Below are positions 53,894 to 64,000 of a stretch of 64,000 bases of DNA, one piece after another (the first letter of the stretch is position 1; each line of letters starts with the position of its first letter). This stretch comes from Chitinophaga pinensis (GTDB taxonomy: Bacteria; Bacteroidota; Bacteroidia; Chitinophagales; Chitinophagaceae): positions 5,642,001-5,706,000 of the forward strand of contig LR632930.1 of assembly GCA_902167325.1 (NCBI GenBank), read 5' to 3'. The position numbers and the translations under genes are program-made. A model generated the notes under the pieces. That model ran no database searches. It saw only the letters and a program-made list of their open reading frames with translations, and was not told the origin of the DNA.

Positions 53894-54889
53894 TCAGGAA
53901 AACACCCTTGGGCGGCGTTGCTCCAGCAATGCAAAGTCTGCCAGTACCATGGCGGTAACGGCTTCCAGCACTACAGGCACGCGCAGGGCTATGCACAGAT
54001 CGTGACGGCCTTTTACGGAAAAGGTTTCCACTTCACCGGTAGTGATGTTGAGCGTTTGCTGCTCTTTGGGGGTAGATGATGTAGGCTTCACCGCGATGCG
54101 GAACACCAGCTGGTTCCCGTTCGTGATACCTCCAACCACGCCACCTGCATGGTTAGTAGCGGTTTTGCCTTCCATATCGATGATGGGGTCGTTGTGTTCG
54201 AGTCCCTTCATTTTTGCAGCGGCAAACCCTGCTCCAAACTCAATACCTTTTACCGCGGGGATAGCGAATACCGCATGTGCCAGGTTCGATTCTATTGAGT
54301 CGAAGAATGGCTCTCCCCATCCGATGGGTAAACCATCTACCCTGCACTCCACGATACCGCCTACGGAATCCTTCGCTTTAATGGCTTCTTCCAGTCCCTG
54401 TTCAGGATCGGCGATGCCACCTACTTCGGTGATCTCTGCTTTAACGGAAATGCTTTCTCCCAGTATCTTTTTGGCGATTACGCCTGCCGCCACCAGGTTA
54501 AGGGTAAGGCGGCCGCTGAAATGCCCGCCGCCACGGTAATCTTCGAATCCGCCAAACTTCTTCGACGCTACAAAGTCTGCATGCCCGGGACGGGGAAATT
54601 CCCGCAGCTTGGCATAGTCTGCACTGCGGGTATTATTGTTTTCGAAAAGGATGGTTACCGGGGCGCCGGTGGTATGGTCGTTGAACACGCCGGACTTCAG
54701 GAACGGCAGGTCATCTTCCTTCCGTGGTGTGGTGCCCCGCGCGCCGCCTTTACGGCGCTCCAGGTCGGCCAGAAAGTCTTCCTGCCGCAGCGGAATACCC
54801 GCGGGAACGCCGTCGATATTGACGCCCACGCTTTCCCCATGCGACTCTCCGAATACATTCACCCTGAAAAATCTGCCGAAACTGTTCAT
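53894..54889 (-). CDS. aroC: Chorismate synthase
   Basis: Final shikimate-pathway enzyme; makes chorismate from EPSP using reduced FMN. FGRFFRVNVFGESHGESVGVNIDG at the N terminus holds the GESHG signature. RPGHADFVASKKFGGFEDYRGGGHFSGRLT, GVVGGITNGNQLVFRIAVKPTSS and RHDLCIALRVPVVLEAVTAMVLAD are the other family blocks. The length is 331 residues. Last gene of the aromatic operon, 5 bp after aroA. Confidence 0.97.
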   Translation of the reverse strand: MNSFGRFFRVNVFGESHGESVGVNIDGVPAGIPLRQEDFLADLERRKGGARGTTPRKEDDLPFLKSGVFNDHTTGAPVTILFENNNTRSADYAKLREFPRPGHADFVASKKFGGFEDYRGGGHFSGRLTLNLVAAGVIAKKILGESISVKAEITEVGGIADPEQGLEEAIKAKDSVGGIVECRVDGLPIGWGEPFFDSIESNLAHAVFAIPAVKGIEFGAGFAAAKMKGLEHNDPIIDMEGKTATNHAGGVVGGITNGNQLVFRIAVKPTSSTPKEQQTLNITTGEVETFSVKGRHDLCIALRVPVVLEAVTAMVLADFALLEQRRPRVFS

Positions 54890-54894
54890 GTTGT

Positions 54895-56172
54895 TTAGTG
54901 TTTTACGGTTTCCCCTTCAATAGCCACCGTAGCGCCGAGGAGCTGCAGGTGATCATAGAATTCGGGGTAAGATTTGTTGATGGCTTCCGCATCTTCCACG
55001 ATTACGGGTCCATCAGCTGTGAGGGCTGCAACGGCGCAGGCCATGGCAATACGGTGATCGTTGTGCGAACTTACGCGCGCTCCTTTGATACCAGTGCCGC
55101 CATGCACATGCATGATATCCCCATCGAGGTCGATACGGATACCCATTTTACCAAACTCCTGCTGAAGGGTAAGGCCACGGTCGCTTTCTTTGTGCGCCAG
55201 GCGGCTTACGCCTTTAATAACCGTGGTGCCTTTGCAGTTGGCTGCCAGGGCTACCAGCGGCGGAAAGAGGTCCGGGCAGTCGGTAGCATCGATCTCGAAA
55301 GGTTTCAGTCCGCCTTTGCCTACGATGATGGTGAACATACCGGGCAGAATTTCGGCCCCTGCTTTTTCGAGGGCTTCCATAATGGCCTTATCTGACTGGG
55401 CAGACTGTGTATTCAGGTGATGCACTTCCGCCTTGCCGGCCACGGCTGCGGCCACGAGGAGGAAAGCAGCGCCGCTCCAGTCACCTTCCACGGTGTATTC
55501 ACAGGCGCGGTAAGACTGTGCGCGTTCGAAATGGAACTTCTCGAAGTTCTCGTTGCGCACCTTCACCCCGAAATGCTCCATCAATTGCAGTGTGAGTGCA
55601 ATGTAGGGTTTGCTTTTCAGGTTATCGACCGTGATGGTTGCTTTCTCCGCCACGCTTCCGAAGGCCATGAGGAGTCCGGTGAGGAACTGGGAGGAAAGGG
55701 AACCGTCTATGGTAATGTCTTTAGCCTGAAGGGGACCTTTGATATCGAGGGGGAGTTTGCCGCCATTGCTTTTGACCTGTACGCCCAGCTGTGGGAGTAC
55801 GGCTTCAAAGAAATCCATGGGCCTTGTAATGAGGCTGCCATGGCCGCTGATGGTGATATTACGGTCGGCCAGCGCGGCAATAGGCGTAAACATCCGGATG
55901 CCGAGGCCTGATTCTCCGCAGTTGATCTCGTCGTAGAAAGGAGCCACTCCCTTGCTGGTGATGTGGATCTCTTCATCTACGCGCTTTACCATGGCACCGA
56001 GGTTTTCGGCTACTTCCAGTGCGGCGAGGCAGTCGTTGCTCAGGCCCGGGTTACGGATAACCGTTTTTCCATTGGCGAGAAGCGCCGCCGCCACCGCGCG
56101 CTGCATGGCGCTTTTGGATGGATTGGCGGTCACGTTGCCGCTGATGGTGCCGGGTTGTATCGTTGCTATCAT
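54895..56172 (-). CDS. aroA: 3-phosphoshikimate 1-carboxyvinyltransferase (EPSP synthase)
   Basis: Joins phosphoenolpyruvate to shikimate-3-phosphate. GNVTANPSKSAMQRAVAAALLANG carries the N-terminal lysine motif; CGESGLGIRMFTPIAAL, DGSLSSQFLTGLLMA and VSRLAHKESDRGLTLQQEFGKMG are the remaining blocks. SHNDHRIAMACAVAAL completes the set. At 425 residues the length is normal. It lies 2 bp after aroB and 5 bp before aroC. Confidence 0.96.
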   Translation of the reverse strand: MIATIQPGTISGNVTANPSKSAMQRAVAAALLANGKTVIRNPGLSNDCLAALEVAENLGAMVKRVDEEIHITSKGVAPFYDEINCGESGLGIRMFTPIAALADRNITISGHGSLITRPMDFFEAVLPQLGVQVKSNGGKLPLDIKGPLQAKDITIDGSLSSQFLTGLLMAFGSVAEKATITVDNLKSKPYIALTLQLMEHFGVKVRNENFEKFHFERAQSYRACEYTVEGDWSGAAFLLVAAAVAGKAEVHHLNTQSAQSDKAIMEALEKAGAEILPGMFTIIVGKGGLKPFEIDATDCPDLFPPLVALAANCKGTTVIKGVSRLAHKESDRGLTLQQEFGKMGIRIDLDGDIMHVHGGTGIKGARVSSHNDHRIAMACAVAALTADGPVIVEDAEAINKSYPEFYDHLQLLGATVAIEGETVKH

Positions 56173-56174
56173 GG

Positions 56175-57200
56175 CTATATTTCTTGTAAGATCTGTTTCA
56201 GCTCATCGAGCAGGATCGGTTTGGTGATGGCCTCACCGATCCTGTTCAGGAGCACGAAATGAATGTGGTCTTTTTCACGCTTTTTGTCCAGCCGGAAGAT
56301 GTTGAACACCGCTTCCTTGTCGGAACCCATGGTCACCGGCAGGCGGTAATCATTGATCAAACGGATGAGGCGGTTGGTTTGTTCGGGTGGCAGCTGGTTG
56401 TATTTTTCGGAGATCTTAGCGGCTGCTACCATCCCGATGGCCACTGCTTTACCGTGGGCGATGTTCTCAATTTTCTCAACGGCATGGCCGAGCGTATGCC
56501 CGAAGTTCAGCCAGCGGCGTACACCGCTCTCGAACTCGTCTTCCAATACGAATTTTGTTTTGATCTCTACAGACCGCTGAACGAGGTACTGCAGCACTTC
56601 CACATCCTGCGCCAGGGCTTTATCCTTATTGGCTTCGAGGTAAGTGAACAGGTTTTCGTCGTAGATGCATGCATATTTGATGATCTCCGCGAATCCGTTA
56701 CACCACTCCCCTTCAGGCATGGTAGAAGGCAGCGAATAGTCGAACAGGATGAACCGGGGCTGATTGATGGTGCCCAGCATGTTTTTATGCATGCCATGGC
56801 TCACACCGTTCTTCCCGCCGATAGAAGCATCTACCTGCGCAAGCAGCGTAGTGGGAACGAAAGCGAAGGGAATGCCGCGCATGTAAATGCTGGCGGCAAA
56901 GCCGGTAACATCTGTCAGCATACCGCCGCCAATGCCCACGAGCATTGTCTTACGGTCGGCCTCCAGTTCTATCAGCCCGTCGATGATCTGTTCCATCACC
57001 TCCATCGTCTTGTGATCTTCCCCGTCGGGCACCACCAGCTTCTTCCAGCCGGCGAAGAGATGCCCGTAATGTTGGTCCACATTTTCGTCTACCAGCAGCA
57101 CAGTCCTTGATTTGTCGGCATACTCCCCAAGATTGGCGAGGCTTCCGCCGAGGTAATAATCGCAGGATGACTGCTGAAAACGGTGAGTTTGTTGTATCAT
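56175..57200 (-). CDS. aroB: 3-dehydroquinate synthase
   Basis: NAD- and metal-dependent cyclisation of DAHP to 3-dehydroquinate. Conserved parts are LVDENVDQHYG, VVPDGEDHKTMEVMEQIIDGLIELEADRKTMLVGIGGGMLTDVTGFAAS, and PTTLLAQVDASIGGKNGVSHG. LNFGHTLGHAVEKIENIAHGKAVAIGM carries the metal-binding histidines. Length 341. It follows the DAHPS-CM gene by 22 bp. Confidence 0.97.
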   Translation of the reverse strand: MIQQTHRFQQSSCDYYLGGSLANLGEYADKSRTVLLVDENVDQHYGHLFAGWKKLVVPDGEDHKTMEVMEQIIDGLIELEADRKTMLVGIGGGMLTDVTGFAASIYMRGIPFAFVPTTLLAQVDASIGGKNGVSHGMHKNMLGTINQPRFILFDYSLPSTMPEGEWCNGFAEIIKYACIYDENLFTYLEANKDKALAQDVEVLQYLVQRSVEIKTKFVLEDEFESGVRRWLNFGHTLGHAVEKIENIAHGKAVAIGMVAAAKISEKYNQLPPEQTNRLIRLINDYRLPVTMGSDKEAVFNIFRLDKKREKDHIHFVLLNRIGEAITKPILLDELKQILQEI

Positions 57201-57222: not shown

Positions 57223-58308
57223 TTAGTCGTTCATCACTTTGTTCTGACGGTTGATGGATTCCAGGTGAACAGCGTCGAAGTATTTTCCAATGAAATCTTT
57301 GCTGAGGCCCAGTTTCTCACCAGCACGGATACCACGGTCGAGGATCTCGTTCCAGCGGTTGGTTTGCAGGATAGTGATGTTGTTATCTTTTTTGTACTGA
57401 CCGATCTTCTCTGCGATCTTCATACGGTTGCCCAGCAGCAGCAGGATCTCATCGTCGATACCGTTGATCTGGTTACGCAGTTTTTCCAGTGCGGTGTTGA
57501 AATCTTTATGATCGGTACGCTCGTGCCTCCAGGTGATGTTGTCGAGCATTTCACCGAACTTCTCGGGAGTGATCTGCTGTTTGGCATCGCTCCATGCATT
57601 ATCGGGATCCACGTGCGTTTCGAGCATGAGACCATCGTAATCCAGATCGATGGCTTCCTGGGCTACTGCCTGCAGGATGTCGCGACGGCCGCTGATGTGG
57701 CTCGGGTCGCAGATCATTGGTAATTCAGGATGACGACGTTTCAGTTCGATCGCCAGGTGCCACATGGGGGCGTTGCGGTATTCGGTATTACCGTAGCTGG
57801 AGAAGCCGCGGTGAATGAGGCCAACTTTTTCGATACCGGCTTTCTGGATACGCTCCACCGCACCGATCCACAGTTCCAGGTCGGGGTTGATGGGGTTCTT
57901 GATGAGCACGGGTACTTTTACACCTTTCAGCGCGTCAGCGATTTCCTGAACGGAGAAAGGGTTTACGGTGGTGCGGGCGCCGATCCAGAGGATGTCTACA
58001 CCAAAGTGCAGCGCATCTTCCACCTGCTTGGCGGTAGCTACTTCCACGGTGATGGGCATGCCGGTGAGGTCACGCGCTTTCTGCAACCAGGGCAGGCCCT
58101 TGGTGCCAATTCCTTCAAAGGAGCCGGGCCTGGTGCGGGGTTTCCAGATACCGGCACGGAGTACATCTACCTTACCGGTTTTTGCCAGCGCGAGGGCGGT
58201 GGCCAGTACTTGTTCTTCCGTTTCTGCAGAGCAGGGACCGGAGATGATCAGCGGCTTCTTGTCCGAAGCCGGATCGGCGAATTTTGTTTTTGCTAAGATC
58301 TGTTCCAT
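57223..58308 (-). CDS. Bifunctional DAHP synthase (type I-beta)/chorismate mutase (AroQ)
   Basis: A 361-residue fusion. Residues about 1-260 form DAHP synthase, the entry step of the shikimate pathway (PLIISGPCSAETEEQVLATA, VDVLRAGIWKPRTRPGSFEGIGTKGLPWL, IWIGARTTVNPFSVQ-type block, PMICDPSHISGRRDIL, LDYDGLMLETHVDPDNAWSDAKQQITPE). Residues about 270-355 form an AroQ chorismate mutase (LEKLRNQINGIDDEILLLLGNRMKIAEKIGQYKKDNN). DAHPS with a C-terminal mutase is known from Porphyromonas and other Bacteroidota, where the mutase domain mediates prephenate feedback inhibition. It thus joins the first common step to the first Phe/Tyr branch step. Confidence 0.96.
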   Translation of the reverse strand: MEQILAKTKFADPASDKKPLIISGPCSAETEEQVLATALALAKTGKVDVLRAGIWKPRTRPGSFEGIGTKGLPWLQKARDLTGMPITVEVATAKQVEDALHFGVDILWIGARTTVNPFSVQEIADALKGVKVPVLIKNPINPDLELWIGAVERIQKAGIEKVGLIHRGFSSYGNTEYRNAPMWHLAIELKRRHPELPMICDPSHISGRRDILQAVAQEAIDLDYDGLMLETHVDPDNAWSDAKQQITPEKFGEMLDNITWRHERTDHKDFNTALEKLRNQINGIDDEILLLLGNRMKIAEKIGQYKKDNNITILQTNRWNEILDRGIRAGEKLGLSKDFIGKYFDAVHLESINRQNKVMND

Positions 58309-58345: not shown

Positions 58346-59188
58346 TTACTTCAGAATCTTTCTGATTTTATTGCTCTTCTGGATGAGCTTATAGAAGGTA
58401 TCGTAGTCTTCTGCCTGCAACAGCTGCTTCATCTGTTCCAGCTGGCGGATATGCTCGTCGAGCACATCCAGCACGTTGTTCCGGTTATGTTTGAAGATGG
58501 GTACCCACATGTCAGGCGAGCTTTTCGCGAGGCGTACGGTAGATTCGAAACCACCGCTGGCCAGTTCAAAGATCCTGCCCTGCTCCTTCTCCTTCTTCAG
58601 AACCGTTAATGCCAGTGCGAAAGAAGTGATGTGGGAGATGTGGGAAACGTAGGCCGTGTGCAGGTCATGCTCTTCACCGTTCATGTACACGATGCGCATG
58701 CTCAGCTTATCCACCATGGCTTCCACCATTTCCAGTGCATCTTCATCACTGTTCTTCACATCGCAAAGCACCATGGTTTTGCCGGAGAAGAGGTTCCTTA
58801 CCGCTGCTTCAGGGCCGGAATACTCGGTGCCGGCCATCGGGTGGGCGGCAACAAAGCGACCTCTGTTGGGATGACCGGCAACGAGTTGCAGTAATTTATG
58901 TTTGGTAGAACCCACGTCCATAATTACCTGTCCGGGCTTAGCTTTATCAAGGATGCTGACGATGGTTCCCAGCATAGCATCTACCGGGATGGCCATGATC
59001 ACCAGTTCGGAGCGCTCCATAGCGTCTTCAAGGGTGGAGCCTTCGTCGATGATGCCCAGTTCCTTCGCTTTTGCCAGGTTATCGGTGCTATGATCCACCC
59101 CGATGATCCAGTTGGCTACTCCCCGCTCTTTGAGGCTGAGGGCCAGTGAGCCACCGATGAGGCCTACGCCTACTACCGCTGCTATCAT
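58346..59188 (-). CDS. tyrA: Prephenate dehydrogenase
   Basis: NAD(P)-dependent oxidative decarboxylation of prephenate to 4-hydroxyphenylpyruvate on the Tyr branch. Rossmann motif IAAVVGVGLIGGSLALSLKERG at the N terminus, then IMDVGSTKHKLLQ and RFVAAHPMAGTEYSGPEAA (with the catalytic His). HDLHTAYVSHISHITSFALAL is the C-terminal dimerisation block. The 280-residue length fits a monofunctional enzyme without an ACT domain. The ATG overlaps the stop of the aminotransferase gene by 4 bp. Confidence 0.96.
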   Translation of the reverse strand: MIAAVVGVGLIGGSLALSLKERGVANWIIGVDHSTDNLAKAKELGIIDEGSTLEDAMERSELVIMAIPVDAMLGTIVSILDKAKPGQVIMDVGSTKHKLLQLVAGHPNRGRFVAAHPMAGTEYSGPEAAVRNLFSGKTMVLCDVKNSDEDALEMVEAMVDKLSMRIVYMNGEEHDLHTAYVSHISHITSFALALTVLKKEKEQGRIFELASGGFESTVRLAKSSPDMWVPIFKHNRNNVLDVLDEHIRQLEQMKQLLQAEDYDTFYKLIQKSNKIRKILK

Positions 59189-60369
59189 ACGTGGGCTTTT
59201 TTACGATCTACAATTTTTTCCCGCACCCGGCCGATGGCTTCGGCGAACACCTGTTCGTCGCGGCAGAGGCTCACACGGATGTAGCCTTTACCGTTTTCTC
59301 CGAAAATACCGCCGGGGGTGATAAAGACGTGCGCCTGCTGCAGTACTTCCTCGCTCACGGCAAAACCATCTGCATAGCCTGCAGGGATCTGCGCCCATAC
59401 GAACATACCCACCTGGTTACGGTCGTAGGTGCAGCCGATGAGGTCCAGCAGTTCAAATACTTTGTTTCGGCGGCCTGCGTAAATGGCGTTCAGTCCGTCG
59501 TACCAGTCTTTCCCCAGCTCCAGCGCGGCTACTGCAGCCATCTGTACTGGCTGGAACATGCCGGAGTCCATATTGGATTTGAAACGCAGCACATCGTTCA
59601 GGAATTCCGCTTTGCCGGCGAGCATTCCCACGCGCCATCCGGCCATATTACCGGATTTGCTGAGGCTGTTCAGTTCGAGGGCTACTTCCTTAGCGCCGGG
59701 CGTAGCCAGTAAGCTGGCGGGCCTGTCGTTCAGGATGAAGCTGTACGGGTTATCGTGACAGAGCAGGATGTTATGTTTGGTGGCGAAGGCCACGAGTTTT
59801 TCGAAAGTGTCTTCCTTAGCCTGTGAGCCGGTGGGCATGTGGGGATAGTTCACCCACATCAGTTTTACTTTGGAAAGGTCGCGCTGTTCCAGTTTGGCGA
59901 GGTCGGGCTGCCAGTCGTTGGCCGCTTCGAGGGTGTAGGTCACGGGCGTAGCACCGGAGAGCTGCACTGCGGAGCGGTAGGTAGGGTACCCGGGGTCCGG
60001 GATGAGGGCTTCGTCACCTTCCTCGAGGAACGTCATGCAGATGTGCATGATACCTTCTTTGGAGCCGATGAGGGGCAGCACTTCGGTATCCGGGTTGAGT
60101 GTAACACCGTAGAAGCGGTTGTACCAGTTGGCCATGGCCTGCCGCAGTGCGGGGATGCCTTTATAGCCCTGGTAAGCATGTGTATCAGGCCTGGCCGCAT
60201 GCGTGGTGAGTGCAGCGGTAACGGAGGGGTGCGGGGGAAGATCCGGACTGCCGATGCCGAGGTTAATCACGCGGGCGCCGGCTTTATTCATGTCGTCGAT
60301 CTCCCGGAGTTTCCGTGAAAAGTAGTATTCCTCGGTATGCTGCAATCGTTTGGCTACGGATGGTTGCAT
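59185..60369 (-). CDS. Class I/II PLP aminotransferase, probably aromatic
   Basis: A 394-residue fold-type-I aminotransferase. NLGIGSPDLPPHPSVTAALTTHA at the N terminus, DEALIPDPGYPTYRSAVQLSGA, the PLP lysine in LNSLSKSGNMAGWRVGMLAG, and YIRVSLCRDEQVFAEAI. The closest families are LL-diaminopimelate-aminotransferase-like and aspartate/aromatic aminotransferases. Lying between pheA and tyrA, it most likely transaminates phenylpyruvate and 4-hydroxyphenylpyruvate to Phe and Tyr. The specific substrate is inferred from context. Confidence 0.92.
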   Translation of the reverse strand: MQPSVAKRLQHTEEYYFSRKLREIDDMNKAGARVINLGIGSPDLPPHPSVTAALTTHAARPDTHAYQGYKGIPALRQAMANWYNRFYGVTLNPDTEVLPLIGSKEGIMHICMTFLEEGDEALIPDPGYPTYRSAVQLSGATPVTYTLEAANDWQPDLAKLEQRDLSKVKLMWVNYPHMPTGSQAKEDTFEKLVAFATKHNILLCHDNPYSFILNDRPASLLATPGAKEVALELNSLSKSGNMAGWRVGMLAGKAEFLNDVLRFKSNMDSGMFQPVQMAAVAALELGKDWYDGLNAIYAGRRNKVFELLDLIGCTYDRNQVGMFVWAQIPAGYADGFAVSEEVLQQAHVFITPGGIFGENGKGYIRVSLCRDEQVFAEAIGRVREKIVDRKKAHV

Positions 60370-60391: not shown

Positions 60392-61222
60392 TCAGGTATG
60401 CGTATTGCCTTTTTTGTAGATCCCCAGCACTGTCAGCTGCTCCGTGAGGGGCGCGATTTTCTCGAGCGCCTGGTGGAAGTGGTCGGGGGAATCAAATTCC
60501 ATGTCGGCATGAAAATAATAATGCCACTCTTTCGCCGGTATGGGGAAGCTCTGGATTTTACTCAGGTTGATGCCTTCTTCCGCGATCATGGTGAGCACGC
60601 GGGCGAGGCTTCCCCGCTCATTGGAAGTCTGGAAATATACGGAAGATTTATTAGCATCAGCCGGCGTCTTCACTCCATTCCGGGAAATAGCCAGAAAGCG
60701 GGTATAGTTGTTTTTAGCCGTGTGGATGTTGCGGCCGATAACGTCCAGCCCGAAGATGTCGGCCGCCAGCTGACCGGCGATGGCTGCGGTGGTCTTCAGC
60801 TTCTTTTGGCTCACATGTTTGGCGCTCAGTGCAGTGTCTTCCGTTTCCACCAGCTTGATGTGCGGGTATTTGGCGAGGAAGTCCATACACTGCAGGAGGG
60901 CCATGGGGTGTGAGTGTACTTCGCGGATATCGTCGATCGTTTGTCCGGGCAGTACCATAAGGTTCTGATTGATCTGCAGGTACAGTTCCCCGGTGATGTG
61001 CAGACCGGAGTTTTTGAGCAGGGAGTAGTTGGGCAGGATGCTGCCAGCGATAGAGTTTTCGATGGCCATCATGCCGGCGTCTACCTCGGCTTCCCCGTTC
61101 TTCACTTTACGGACGAGTTCCGAAAAGGAGGCACAGGACTCGATGGCGGTTTGTTTGCCGAAGTAGTTCTGGGCGGCTATCTGGTGGAAACACCCTTCAA
61201 ATCCCTGGATCGCGATGCGCAT
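60392..61222 (-). CDS. pheA: Prephenate dehydratase with ACT regulatory domain
   Basis: Converts prephenate to phenylpyruvate. The catalytic part (about 1-180) starts RIAIQGFEGCFHQIAAQNYFG and contains GMMAIENSIAGSILPNYSLL, VHSHPMALLQCMDFL and the TRFLAI motif with the active-site Thr. The ACT domain spans about 195-270 (RGSLARVLTMIAEEGINLSKIQSFP) and probably gives Phe feedback inhibition. There is no fused chorismate mutase; that activity sits on the DAHP synthase. First structural gene of the operon, behind a double attenuator. Confidence 0.96.
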   Translation of the reverse strand: MRIAIQGFEGCFHQIAAQNYFGKQTAIESCASFSELVRKVKNGEAEVDAGMMAIENSIAGSILPNYSLLKNSGLHITGELYLQINQNLMVLPGQTIDDIREVHSHPMALLQCMDFLAKYPHIKLVETEDTALSAKHVSQKKLKTTAAIAGQLAADIFGLDVIGRNIHTAKNNYTRFLAISRNGVKTPADANKSSVYFQTSNERGSLARVLTMIAEEGINLSKIQSFPIPAKEWHYYFHADMEFDSPDHFHQALEKIAPLTEQLTVLGIYKKGNTHT

Positions 61223-61247
61223 ATATGATGTTTAAAATTCTGTTAAG

Positions 61248-61282
61248 TAATAAAAAGGGCCCCGCTTGTGGCGGGACCCTTT
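61248..61282 (-). terminator. Attenuator terminator 2 of the aromatic operon
   Basis: On the minus strand AAAGGGUCCCGC (61282-61271) pairs with GCGGGGCCCUUU (61265-61254) around CACAA. That is 12 pairs, one being G-U on this strand only, followed by a U-tract (TTTTTATT to 61249). It lies 26 nt before the pheA ATG, so the operon is expressed only if it is bypassed. Confidence 0.93.
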
Positions 61283-61324
61283 CTTTCATTTGACCGGCGA
61301 ACCGTTGTCACAAGAGAGTCCCGC
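61271..61324 (-). promoter_or_regulatory. Candidate antiterminator 2
   Basis: GCGGGACUCU (61324-61315, codons 20-23 of leader peptide 2) can pair with AGGGUCCCGC (61280-61271), the 5' arm of terminator 2: ten continuous pairs with one G-U. The two folds exclude each other. The arm starts 10 nt after the last aromatic codon. It is thus free when a ribosome waits in the Phe/Tyr run, and covered when the ribosome reaches the stop. Confidence 0.8.
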
Positions 61325-61382
61325 TTTCTTTTGCGTAAAAGAAAAAGTAAAAATAGCAGGCATAAAATCGTTTCTGTGACAT
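61308..61382 (-). CDS. Leader peptide 2 (Phe/Tyr-rich, 24 codons)
   Basis: ATG at 61382, TGA at 61310-61308. The peptide begins MSQKR, continues FYACYFYFFFY, and ends AKESGTLL. Nine of 24 residues are Phe (5) or Tyr (4), clustered at residues 6-16, with no Trp. It lies between attenuator terminators 1 and 2 in the pheA leader. This is the expected form of a control codon run for sensing charged tRNA(Phe) and tRNA(Tyr). Confidence 0.88.
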   Translation of the reverse strand: MSQKRFYACYFYFFFYAKESGTLL

Positions 61383-61412
61383 ATCTGGTTTTTACCGGTT
61401 TGCATAAGTTCT

Positions 61413-61443
61413 AAAAAGAAAAGGCCCCCTTTTGCAGGAGGCC
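61413..61443 (-). terminator. Attenuator terminator 1 of the aromatic operon
   Basis: On the minus strand GGCCUCC (61443-61437) pairs with GGGGGCC (61429-61423) around UGCAAAA: seven pairs, one a G-U wobble. The U-rich tract TTTTCTTTTT follows (61422-61413). It lies 44 nt after the stop of leader peptide 1. Confidence 0.88.
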
Positions 61444-61489
61444 CGTTATATTTTTTCATCTGTTTGGATCAGCAAAAAACGAACCTCCT
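61436..61489 (-). promoter_or_regulatory. Candidate antiterminator 1
   Basis: AGGAGGUUCGUU (61489-61478), beginning inside the stop codon of leader 1, can pair with AACGGGCCUCCU (61447-61436). This gives twelve continuous pairs including two G-U, and the second strand contains the 5' arm of terminator 1. A ribosome at the stop codon would cover it and allow termination; one stalled on aromatic codons upstream would leave it free. Confidence 0.82.
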
Positions 61490-61547
61490 AATTCTGGTAC
61501 CAGAAAAAGTAAAAGCCGTAAAAGTATCCAAAAGTGTGCTGTTGCAT
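61488..61547 (-). CDS. Leader peptide 1 (Phe/Tyr/Trp-rich, 19 codons)
   Basis: ATG at 61547, TAG at 61490-61488. The peptide is MQQHTFGYFYGFYFFWYQN: five Phe, four Tyr and one Trp, ten aromatic residues of 19. It starts about 24 nt after the predicted transcription start and is followed by a mutually exclusive antiterminator/terminator pair. The composition matches the operon, which serves Phe, Tyr and (through chorismate) Trp synthesis. Confidence 0.92.
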   Translation of the reverse strand: MQQHTFGYFYGFYFFWYQN

Positions 61548-61577
61548 CAGATGTGTTATTTGCTTTGTTTGATATGA

Positions 61578-61608
61578 CAAAAGTAAAGCAGGATTTCATT
61601 TTATCAAA
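61578..61608 (-). promoter_or_regulatory. Promoter of the aromatic operon
   Basis: On the minus strand TTTG (61608-61605), a 19-nt spacer and TACTTTTG (61585-61578) match the Bacteroidota -33/-7 consensus exactly. The expected start is near 61571, giving a leader of about 350 nt before pheA. Confidence 0.8.
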
Positions 61609-61644
61609 CAGGTAAGTGGAAAAATAAATTTCCTCTAACCAAGC

Positions 61645-61848
61645 ATGCCATTCATTGCATTTTCTTCAATAAATCAGGAAAAAACCCCGTCAGTTGGACA
61701 GATAATGGCCGGATTAAATGCTATAGCAAATAATTTCGGAGGCTTGCCTCTGACTATTTCTACACACACGTCGCGCGTCAGTCTAAGGCTACATTCCCAT
61801 TTGCAGCAGGCTTATTCCGGAGTTGATGCTGATATAAGGCAGGTATAA
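61645..61848 (+). CDS. Doubtful 67-codon ORF upstream of repeat array C
   Basis: ATG to TAA, beginning MPFIAFSSINQEKTPSVG and divergent from the aromatic operon. No family, signal or clear promoter was recognised, and its stop codon lies inside the first units of repeat array C. It may be a small unknown protein or a chance frame; a low call. Confidence 0.25.
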   Translation: MPFIAFSSINQEKTPSVGQIMAGLNAIANNFGGLPLTISTHTSRVSLRLHSHLQQAYSGVDADIRQV

Positions 61849-61951
61849 CCCAGGTATAAATCATATATAAGCTACCTATAAGCTACCCTTTATAGGGGGT
61901 AGCTTATAGGTAAGTTATAGGTGGGTTAAAGGTAGCTTATAGGTAGCTTAT
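61833..61951. repeat. Array C: 11-nt-period repeats in both orientations around an 8-nt hairpin loop
   Basis: Left half: TATAA recurs at 61833, 61844, 61855, 61866 and 61877, exactly 11 nt apart, and the last units read ATAAGCTACCT, ATAAGCTACCC. Loop: TTTATAGG (61889-61896). Right half: GGGTAGCTTAT, AGGTAAGTTAT, AGGTGGGTTAA, AGGTAGCTTAT, AGGTAGCTTAT (61897-61951). The innermost 16 bp pair perfectly and 20 of 22 pair overall. The rest of the 61952-62135 gap shows only the lipoprotein terminator. Confidence 0.92.
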
Positions 61952-62073
61952 ATTAATTATAACCCTTAGCCAACAGTACTTCAACATACTGTCTAACAGC
62001 TGATTAGCCCGGGATACCAGGAAGTTTTGTCACAAAAAGGATGAGAGGGAGGTAAAAGTGCAGGGTAACGGGC

Positions 62074-62484: not shown

Positions 62485-63048
62485 GTGAATAATCTTTTGC
62501 ACATAGAAAAGGATCAGGAATTACTGCACAGATTAGCGGCCAATGACGATAAAGCTTTAGAATTCATCTATTTAGAGCATTATCCCATGGTTGCGAGGAT
62601 GATTATGCAGCACAATGGATCGGCAGACGATGCCAGAGACATTTTCCAGGAGGCGATGATTGTATTATATGAAAAGGCAAAAGAGGGGAATTTTGTACTC
62701 TCTTCCCGGTTAAAGACCTTCCTCTATTCCGTTTGCCGGAGGATGTGGCTGAAGAAGCTCCAGAGCGGGCCTGCCAGCACTCCCCTCCCGGAAGATGTAG
62801 AGGAATCTGCAGATGCAGCCGATGCGCTGGAAGCCCATCTCGAAAAAGATGCACAGTTCCGGCAGATGGAAGCCGCCATGGGGAAGATCGGGGAACCCTG
62901 CAAAACCATCCTGGAGGAATATTACATCCACCGGAAAAGTATGCAGGACATCGCGGAACAGTTTGGCTACACCAATGCTGAAAACGCCAAGAACCAGAAG
63001 TACAAATGCCTGATGCGTCTGAAGAAACTATTTTTTACCACCATATAA
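62485..63048 (+). CDS. ECF-type RNA polymerase sigma factor, GTG start
   Basis: A 187-residue sigma-70-like factor. Region 2 (ALEFIYLEHYPMVARMIMQHNGSADDARDIFQEAMIVLYEKA, SRLKTFLYSVCRRMW) is followed by region 4 (PCKTILEEYYIHRKSMQDIAEQFGYTNAENAKNQKYKCLMRLKKLF), the pattern of the small Bacteroidota sigma factors. Translation starts at GTG 62485. The next gene, 22 bp downstream, encodes an anti-sigma-like domain fused to a protease, presumably its partner. Confidence 0.92.
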   Translation: MNNLLHIEKDQELLHRLAANDDKALEFIYLEHYPMVARMIMQHNGSADDARDIFQEAMIVLYEKAKEGNFVLSSRLKTFLYSVCRRMWLKKLQSGPASTPLPEDVEESADAADALEAHLEKDAQFRQMEAAMGKIGEPCKTILEEYYIHRKSMQDIAEQFGYTNAENAKNQKYKCLMRLKKLFFTTI

Positions 63049-63070
63049 TAAAGCCAGCAGGAATACTGTG

Positions 63071-64000
63071 ATGAACGATTTACATAAAATACAGGAAATA
63101 GAACGCTACCTGGACGGTGAAATGACCGCTCCGGAAAAGGAAGCGTTTGAATCCCTCCTGCGCCGGGACCCCGCCCTTCAGCGGGAAGTTACCAGCCATG
63201 AGGCGTTCCTCTCCCAGCTGAGGGCACATGGCTCCCGGCAGGATCTCCGCTCCCGGATGAACGCCATCCACCCTAAAGCCATTACGCCGGCCCAAACGGT
63301 CCCCACTCCCGTGGTGCCGCTTACCAGCCGCCGCCGTACCTGGTACTCTGTAGCCGCCGCTGCCTCCATCGCCCTCATTACCTCCATGGCAACCATGGCC
63401 ATCATGCAGCGTTCCGCTAAAAACTCCTACACCGATAAGTATGAAGACGTACGCCGTGTGCTGAACAACATCCAGCGCTCGCAGAACGCCATCATCCGCG
63501 ATATCAATAGTAAAAATACCGGTCCGGCTAACCCCGGCACTTATGGCGGTACCTGCTTCGCCATCAGCCGCAACGGCTACATGGTCACCAATTACCATGT
63601 GATTGCCGGGGCCGACTCCATTTATCTTCAAAACAACAAAGGCGAGGCTTTTAAAGCCGTTAGCGTATTCGAAGACGTGTCCAGCGATCTGGCCGTACTC
63701 CGGGTGTCCGACAGCAACTTCCGCTCCGCCCCGCTCCCCTATACGCTCAAAATGCAGCCTTCCCGCCTCGGGCAGGAAGTATTCAGCATGGGCTACCCCC
63801 GAGACGAGATCGTTTTCGGGATGGGTTACATCAGCGCGCAAACCGGCTTCAACGGCGACACCCTGGCCTACCAGGTTTCCATCCCCGTTAAACCCGGCAA
63901 CAGCGGCGCTCCGCTCCTCGATATGAACGGTGAGCTTATCGGCATCATCACCGGCCGCCAGTCTACCTCCGAAGGCATCGCCTTCGCAGTGAAATCCGGC
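63071..64000 (+). CDS. Membrane-anchored trypsin-like (HtrA/S1C) protease with anti-sigma-like N terminus (3' end cut off)
   Basis: Open to the window end (310 codons seen). Residues 1-60 are the pattern of a cytoplasmic anti-sigma domain (IQEIERYLDGEMTAPEKEAFESLLRRDPALQREVTSHEAFLSQL). Residues 91-112 are a transmembrane helix (WYSVAAAASIALITSMATMAIM). A short helical linker leads to a trypsin-like domain from about 157 with the complete triad: His176 (TNYHVIAGA), Asp206 (SSDLAVLRV) and Ser278 (PGNSGAPLLD). Topology places the protease in the periplasm. With the adjacent sigma gene it may form a one-protein envelope-stress sensor. Any PDZ domain would lie beyond the edge. Confidence 0.9.
   Translation, partial: MNDLHKIQEIERYLDGEMTAPEKEAFESLLRRDPALQREVTSHEAFLSQLRAHGSRQDLRSRMNAIHPKAITPAQTVPTPVVPLTSRRRTWYSVAAAASIALITSMATMAIMQRSAKNSYTDKYEDVRRVLNNIQRSQNAIIRDINSKNTGPANPGTYGGTCFAISRNGYMVTNYHVIAGADSIYLQNNKGEAFKAVSVFEDVSSDLAVLRVSDSNFRSAPLPYTLKMQPSRLGQEVFSMGYPRDEIVFGMGYISAQTGFNGDTLAYQVSIPVKPGNSGAPLLDMNGELIGIITGRQSTSEGIAFAVKSG

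Follow-up and report, generated by a model that had tools for sequence, protein, structure and literature searches.

Attenuation is a textbook mechanism which is usually drawn as a single switch. The DNA analysed here, a 64,000-nucleotide stretch from Chitinophaga pinensis referred to as the window, raises the question of what an operon may gain from carrying two such switches in series. An earlier note on this DNA had described two peptide attenuators, one behind the other, between a single promoter and a seven-gene aromatic operon, and had read them as checkpoints with different inputs. If instead both respond to the same signal, as is argued below, the locus would carry a doubled switch built from translation and RNA folding alone, and the benefit of a second checkpoint for the same signal, in terms of leakage, steepness or noise, becomes a testable question.

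Organisation of the leader region and its operon

The observation itself is confirmed: a predicted promoter is followed by leader 1, terminator 1, leader 2, terminator 2 and a seven-gene operon assigned to Phe and Tyr, all on the minus strand (window coordinates are used throughout). The promoter (61578-61608) is composed of TTTG (61608-61605), a spacer of 19 nucleotides and TACTTTTG (61585-61578), and conforms to the TTTG/TAnnTTTG consensus which we take to be the Bacteroidota type. Leader peptide 1 is encoded by the ORF MQQHTFGYFYGFYFFWYQN (61488-61547), which starts with an ATG at 61547, ends in TAG and has a counterpart in all 78 assessable Chitinophaga loci. Its final aromatic codons are spanned by a short hairpin, TTTCTG-GTAC-CAGAAT (61491-61506), identified in an alignment of 77 rows, and its stop codon is overlapped by the 5' arm of antiterminator 1, TAGGAGGTTCGTT (61478-61490), whose partner lies at 61447-61435. 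Intrinsic terminator 1 (61413-61444) consists of GGGCCTCCT-GCAAA-AGGGGGCCT and a T-rich tail. The ORF of leader peptide 2, MSQKRFYACYFYFFFYAKESGTLL (61308-61382; ATG at 61382, stop TGA), has a counterpart in 77 of the 78 loci and itself contains, past the last Tyr codon, the 5' arm of antiterminator 2, GCGGGACTCT (61315-61324; partner 61280-61271). Intrinsic terminator 2 (61250-61283) is formed by GAAAGGGTCCCGC-CACAA-GCGGGGCCCTTTT followed by TAT.

The seven genes are assigned to one operon on the basis of their spacing, common strand and NCBIfam matches. They encode prephenate dehydratase (pheA, 60392-61222, ATG at 61222; PRK11899/PRK11898), a PLP aminotransferase resembling LL-diaminopimelate and aspartate aminotransferases (59185-60369; best match PRK09276), prephenate dehydrogenase (tyrA, 58346-59188; PRK08507), a DAHP synthase-chorismate mutase fusion (57223-58308; PRK08673 and TIGR01805), 3-dehydroquinate synthase (aroB, 56175-57200; TIGR01357), 3-phosphoshikimate 1-carboxyvinyltransferase (aroA, 54895-56172; TIGR01356) and chorismate synthase (aroC, 53894-54889; TIGR00033). 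The matches of tyrA, aroB, aroA and aroC are over the curated cut-offs; those of pheA, the aminotransferase and the DAHP synthase fall below them, so that the names of these three rest on best-family similarity and context. By its predicted gene content the operon is one for the production of Phe and Tyr. Over the best-matching segment, the PheA protein of the window shares 99% identity with its C. deserti counterpart.

Further features surround the promoter. Upstream of it, at 61832-61953, lies an imperfect inverted repeat with 57-nt arms that are 74% complementary, which contains direct repeats of the GGTAGCTTATA type at 11-nt spacing; two matches to MIR169 in this upstream region were discarded, as they score far below the gathering score and fall on the repeat-built hairpin. 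On the plus strand a sigma-factor-like gene (62485-63048; Pfam Sigma70_r2, E 1.2e-07) is followed by a trypsin-like protease gene (63068-64000; Pfam Trypsin_2, E 3.7e-24).

A chance origin of the two units is ruled out by shuffling and by a scan of the window, both carried out with a detector that calls an ATG ORF with at least six aromatic residues in 13, followed by a terminator. The real 458-nt region yields two such leader-plus-terminator units, a result that none of 2000 dinucleotide shuffles reproduces, and a single unit arises in 2 of the 2000. Three of the 848 segments into which both strands of the 64-kb window were divided contain any unit, and all three overlap this locus.

Both units are probably carried by one mRNA. 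All 78 Chitinophaga loci have a TAnnTTTG -7 element no more than 90 nt ahead of leader 1, 19 of them with the full TTTG-N18-22-TAnnTTTG arrangement, and the distance from the stop codon of leader 1 to the start of leader 2 is 83-130 nt. Between the two leader starts, a TTG-N17-23-TAnnTTTG promoter pair is matched in none of the 77 two-leader loci, and a bare TAnnTTTG occurs in six. A second promoter between the units is rejected on this ground, although a missing match to the consensus does not prove that no promoter exists. Tandem units are also found outside the genus, in a group of the same order (f18) and in a group of the same class that includes Hymenobacter (f29); none of the 14 f29 tandems has the -7 motif ahead of leader 1, and one of the 18 f18 tandems has it between the leaders.

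Conservation and RNA structure of the two units

All 79 Chitinophaga genomes searched contain pheA, and 78 of them are assessable, one contig ending 111 nt upstream of the gene. Two aromatic leader ORFs, each followed by a terminator, precede pheA in 77 of the 78, so the series of two peptide attenuators behind one promoter that the earlier note had proposed from a single locus extends across the genus. The exception (L085) is an assembly of 80% completeness in which leader 2 appears by eye to be frameshifted and pheA contains an in-frame stop. Eight rows had a third aromatic-rich ORF, which was left out because it overlapped, was longer or lay further upstream. The median leader 1 contains five Phe and four Tyr codons and the median leader 2 six and four, which speaks against distinct inputs that arise from a differing Phe:Tyr balance. 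Both kinds of codon are present in both leaders of every tandem, be it from Chitinophaga (77/77), f18 (18/18) or f29 (14/14). Within the Chitinophaga runs, Phe and Tyr interchange and the length varies, yet the residues are always aromatic, as is expected if the supply of tRNA and not the peptide sequence is what counts. The idea that leader 2 is a decayed copy is contradicted by the conservation of the leader, its terminator and its antiterminator. In 47 of the 79 Chitinophaga loci a palindromic hairpin like TAGTTGCTNNAGCAACTA is located in the gap between terminator 2 and pheA, up to 130 nt upstream of the gene; it is absent from the window and may be a third element with a role in regulation or stability.

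An antiterminator helix with at least four G-C pairs can be formed in both units of 76 of the 77 two-leader loci and in a single unit of the remaining one. Covariation was assessed in Chitinophaga alignments of 77 distinct rows for unit 1 and 75 for unit 2. In unit 1, standard pairs account for 98.0% of terminator cells and 91.3% of antiterminator cells, with 34 and 15 cells, respectively, changed on both sides of the pair; in unit 2 the proportions are 96.2% and 88.9%, with 8 and 9 such cells. The covariation score of all four helices is higher than in all 500 shuffles and all slid versions, although these scores ignore the relatedness of the rows. A stricter measure, the number of pairs changed on both sides, is matched or exceeded in 4 of the 500 shuffles in the case of terminator 1 and in 41 for antiterminator 1, and in unit 2 in 237 for the terminator and 260 for the antiterminator; by this measure covariation is clear for terminator 1 alone. 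For further pair types the corresponding numbers, terminator first, are 102 and 305 of 500 in unit 1 and 270 and 227 in unit 2. Covariation of antiterminator 1, terminator 2 and antiterminator 2 is modest. Antiterminator 1 has more cells changed on both sides when slid by +1 or +2 (23 and 26) than in its true register (15), and the score of antiterminator 2 is barely above that of its own -1 slide (0.066 versus 0.060). In the clade of the window antiterminator 1 lies, by eye, one base out of register relative to other species, with its partner shifted to match. Over 77 rows, 97.6% of cells in the hairpin that spans the final aromatic codons of leader 1 are paired; the changes seen there are one-sided and thus provide no covariation support. 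A possible role for this hairpin is that of a transcription-pause or '1:2' hairpin.

In both units the two alternative folds are of similar predicted stability, with median energies of -18.5 kcal/mol for the antiterminator duplex and -19.3 kcal/mol for the terminator in unit 1, and -20.4 and -19.9 kcal/mol in unit 2, where the duplex values omit the cost of closing the loop. Each arm prefers its own terminator over that of the other unit in 75 of 77 loci, which holds for both units, and the insulation of the two predicted switches from one another is evident from the sequence. The arm of unit 1 starts 6-11 nt after the last aromatic codon in all 77 loci and 6-8 nt after it in 68 of them, an offset at which a ribosome positioned on that codon would partly cover the arm and which therefore counts against the attenuator reading. 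In unit 2 the offset is 8-12 nt in 76 of 77 loci and 18 nt in one. A riboswitch or T-box was dropped as a candidate, since none of the 12 covariance-model matches with E up to 5 in the interval 60900-62000 belongs to either class.

Distribution of single and double units

The units were scored with a detector that calls an ATG leader with at least five aromatic residues in 13 and a recognised terminator no more than 480 nt from pheA. Each genome was counted once, and outside Chitinophaga the upstream regions cover part of the pheA matches (80 stretches and further loci favouring the best matches). Other genera of the same family have one unit at 83 of 89 loci from 65 genera, with none detected at the other six and two units at none of the 89. 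In f18 two units are present at 18 of 44 loci, one at 23 and none at three, and in f29 two units are present in 14 of 30, of which 11 fall in g190 (which has a further 10 loci with one unit) and three in g387; g386 has five loci with one unit and one with none. Among named records two units were scored in 30 and one unit in four Chitinophagaceae, which overlap with the 79 genomes, and one unit was scored in each of four Hymenobacter and four Rikenellaceae. Six loci scored as having one unit (L063, L256, L313, L336, L339 and L354) do contain a further aromatic ORF whose terminator escaped the detector, and in group f25 nine of 13 rows scored none, each of these nine having an aromatic ORF but no terminator that the detector accepts. 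In the 300 nt upstream of pheA in L063, a Bacteroidetes metagenome bin, the aromatic leaders read MYNSAYFFYFYFFANAKG and MAKAVFCFLAYFFYFYFF..., the second being the one without a recognised terminator.

The earlier note had held that homologous operons with only one leader and a second region lacking conservation, or a separate promoter between the units, would speak against its proposal. One-leader homologues do exist, as the other genera of the family show, but across Chitinophaga the second unit is retained and no promoter pair is matched between the units, so that the claim is narrowed and not refuted. A quick pheA tree of 155 rows requires a minimum of 18 switches between single and double units among the 131 scored rows, a number that is inflated by detection errors and obtained on a tree with many weak branches. 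The root of this tree was not inferred, and gain of the second unit is thus indistinguishable from its loss. Four named Hymenobacter rows are placed inside a clade of g190 and g387, with g386 elsewhere, and this clade joins L061 and L063, which are Chitinophagaceae-like or unassigned and lie near Chitinophagaceae (support 84). The placement of the g190/g387 clade may reflect transfer of the operon.

Within the same genome, trpE (L402) is preceded by one leader, MNNTYKLWWHAMDISAV, which has two adjacent Trp codons and is located, by eye, before a terminator-like hairpin; hisG (L404) likewise has one leader, MNITVHTHHHHTCQTGKQGML, with a run of His codons before a terminator. To judge from these two genes, the genome does not double its leaders as a rule. 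Runs of five Phe/Tyr codons match 88 times in the genome, compared with 117 times for a reversed control pattern, and the 70 loci that cover these 88 matches (the window's own and one other site excluded) contain no short ATG ORF with at least six aromatic residues in 13 and a terminator; a search for five-codon runs misses shorter ones, such as those of leader 1.

Mechanism, alternative readings and known systems

The leaders, terminators and alternative antiterminators, their conservation and the lack of a recognised second promoter can all be read from the DNA, and from them we infer translation of the leaders, ribosome stalling, readthrough and a multiplicative output. Each unit has the features of the classical trp/pheA type, namely a short ORF rich in codons for the product, an intrinsic terminator ahead of the genes and an antiterminator that excludes it. 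The locus is thus very probably composed of two classical ribosome-mediated transcription attenuators in series behind one promoter, both reporting on Phe and Tyr, whose readthrough multiplies. When charged tRNA-Phe and tRNA-Tyr are ample, a ribosome would complete leader 1 and mask the antiterminator arm, which overlaps the stop codon and would therefore be covered by a ribosome that finishes the leader, and terminator 1 would fold; with Phe and Tyr plentiful, most transcripts would stop at this site. When Phe or Tyr is short, a ribosome would stall in the aromatic run and the arm would be free to base-pair with the upstream half of terminator 1; no longer blocked by the terminator, RNA polymerase would read on. 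It would then face the same choice again at leader 2 and terminator 2, where the arm lies inside the ORF and beyond its last aromatic codon. Since the two leaders contain the same kinds of codon, both should stall on the same shortage of Phe or Tyr, and since both sites must be passed for expression, the output of the operon would be the product of two readthrough probabilities, with less leakage and a steeper response as the predicted consequences.

The alternative put forward in the earlier note is a logic gate in which a lack of any one of Phe, Tyr and Trp opens site 1 and only a lack of Phe or Tyr opens site 2. The codon content underlying it stands: leader 1 of the window has one TGG and leader 2 has none, a distribution shared by the genus, where 76 of the 77 Chitinophaga tandems have TGG in leader 1 (77 of 78 if L085 is included) and none of the 77 has it in leader 2, and the DAHP synthase, aroB, aroA and aroC of the operon feed Trp as well. 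The separate sensing of Trp by leader 1 is weakly supported. The lone Trp codon sits in the conserved leader 1 hairpin with its third base alone outside the stem, and in L082 it is replaced by TGT (Cys) with the stem retained. Beyond the genus Trp is present in leader 1 of 0 of 14 f29 and 4 of 18 f18 tandems and in leader 2 of 1 of 14 and 5 of 18, respectively. A ribosome stalled by shortage of Trp alone would open site 1 only for transcription to end at terminator 2, and trpE of the same genome has a leader of its own. A separate Trp input at leader 1 is therefore unlikely, as is the gate, and two like sensors that would multiply, both rich in Phe and Tyr codons, are better supported than a gate with different inputs.

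Alternatively, a single unit might do the regulating and the other be a relic or serve mainly to reduce basal expression, as may be suggested by the prevalence of single units in the rest of the family (83 of 89 loci, with none detected in six) and by the f29 members that retain only one. We consider this quite improbable for Chitinophaga, where the aromatic codons, terminators and possible antiterminators are kept in both units, a state of preservation that speaks against a relic, for which decay would be expected. In Chitinophaga, leader 1 ends in a near-invariant FWYQ-type sequence, which might instead point to an arrest peptide, whose sequence and not an uncharged tRNA stalls the ribosome; however, the runs conserve aromatic identity and not sequence, and this type of ending was not found among the f18 or f29 leaders listed, which leaves such a switch very improbable. 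By analogy with the Sinorhizobium trp leader peptide, for which action in trans is reported (PMC7298713), unit 1 could mainly yield a trans-acting short RNA or peptide. Terminated leader 1 RNAs should indeed be plentiful, and within Chitinophaga the leader has a strongly conserved end, but what is conserved corresponds to the parts of an attenuator and the peptides swap Phe and Tyr and vary among families, and a role of this kind is hardly likely.

Two Phe/Tyr-reporting attenuators in series thus remain the preferred reading for Chitinophaga, although one unit suffices in most relatives, a point against this reading in that it gives no reason for a second. Whether doubling is a recurrent solution of Bacteroidota aromatic operons, in which like sensors multiply readthrough into a pseudo-cooperative, low-leak switch that has been gained or lost repeatedly (in Chitinophaga, f18 and f29/Hymenobacter), is in our estimate evenly balanced. 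Relatives with one or two units provide natural controls, and within this genome trpE and hisG each have a single leader.

Each unit on its own resembles the classical pheA- or trp-type attenuator, with a leader ORF of product codons, an antiterminator that competes with a terminator and a biosynthetic operon downstream, and it is the presence of two complete units and of mixed Phe and Tyr runs that sets the locus apart. Against the Rfam family Phe_leader (RF01859) the two units reach 26.7 and 24.3 bits, under the gathering score of 55, so neither belongs to that family. Within Bacteroidota, leader-peptide attenuation has been inferred upstream of amino-acid operons in Flavobacterium psychrophilum, where a structured 5' element upstream of pheA is conserved in Flavobacteriaceae (PMC9723704), and Bacteroides thetaiotaomicron has short ORFs resembling leader peptides in long 5' UTRs, including several in the BT_4401 UTR (PMC7366714); the relevant passages of these two accounts describe no serial pair of amino-acid attenuators. 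Among the matches listed from the open-access literature, none describes two like amino-acid attenuators in front of a biosynthetic operon, and no open-access paper matched attenuation, leader peptides and Chitinophaga together.

Doubled leaders are known from other settings. The ermB gene is likewise preceded by two leader peptides, which are reported to act by translational attenuation in response to erythromycin (PMC8274638) and not by termination on amino-acid shortage. Tandem riboswitches and T-boxes are also repeated like sensors in series, and for riboswitches of the same ligand a pseudo-cooperative response is expected; these elements bind the ligand or tRNA directly, and their tandem arrangement is described as most notable in Bacillota (PMC12452182), whereas the predicted sensor in Chitinophaga is the translating ribosome.

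The closest known system is the Salmonella mgtCBR operon, and it qualifies the statement of the earlier note that it knew of no described tandem pair of peptide attenuators before one amino acid operon. Tandem leader-ORF attenuation is already known from the attenuators mgtM and mgtP, which were called a singular example in 2012 (PMC3641672); mgtCBR is, however, no amino-acid biosynthetic operon, and what appears to be new, within the open-access literature, is a like-sensing pair before such an operon. Both systems have two short ORFs in one mRNA leader, each part of an attenuator and followed by one operon, with translation established for mgtCBR and presumed here. In mgtCBR the signals differ, ATP for one attenuator and proline for the second, and act independently and additively, whereas the Chitinophaga leaders would by their codon content both read Phe and Tyr. 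According to the same account, the mgtCBR stem-loops are unlike intrinsic terminators and an involvement of Rho is suggested, whereas both Chitinophaga sites are intrinsic-terminator-like. The mgtCBR operon serves virulence and Mg2+ transport (PMC3641672), whereas the Chitinophaga operon is predicted to make the very amino acids that its two leaders would sense.
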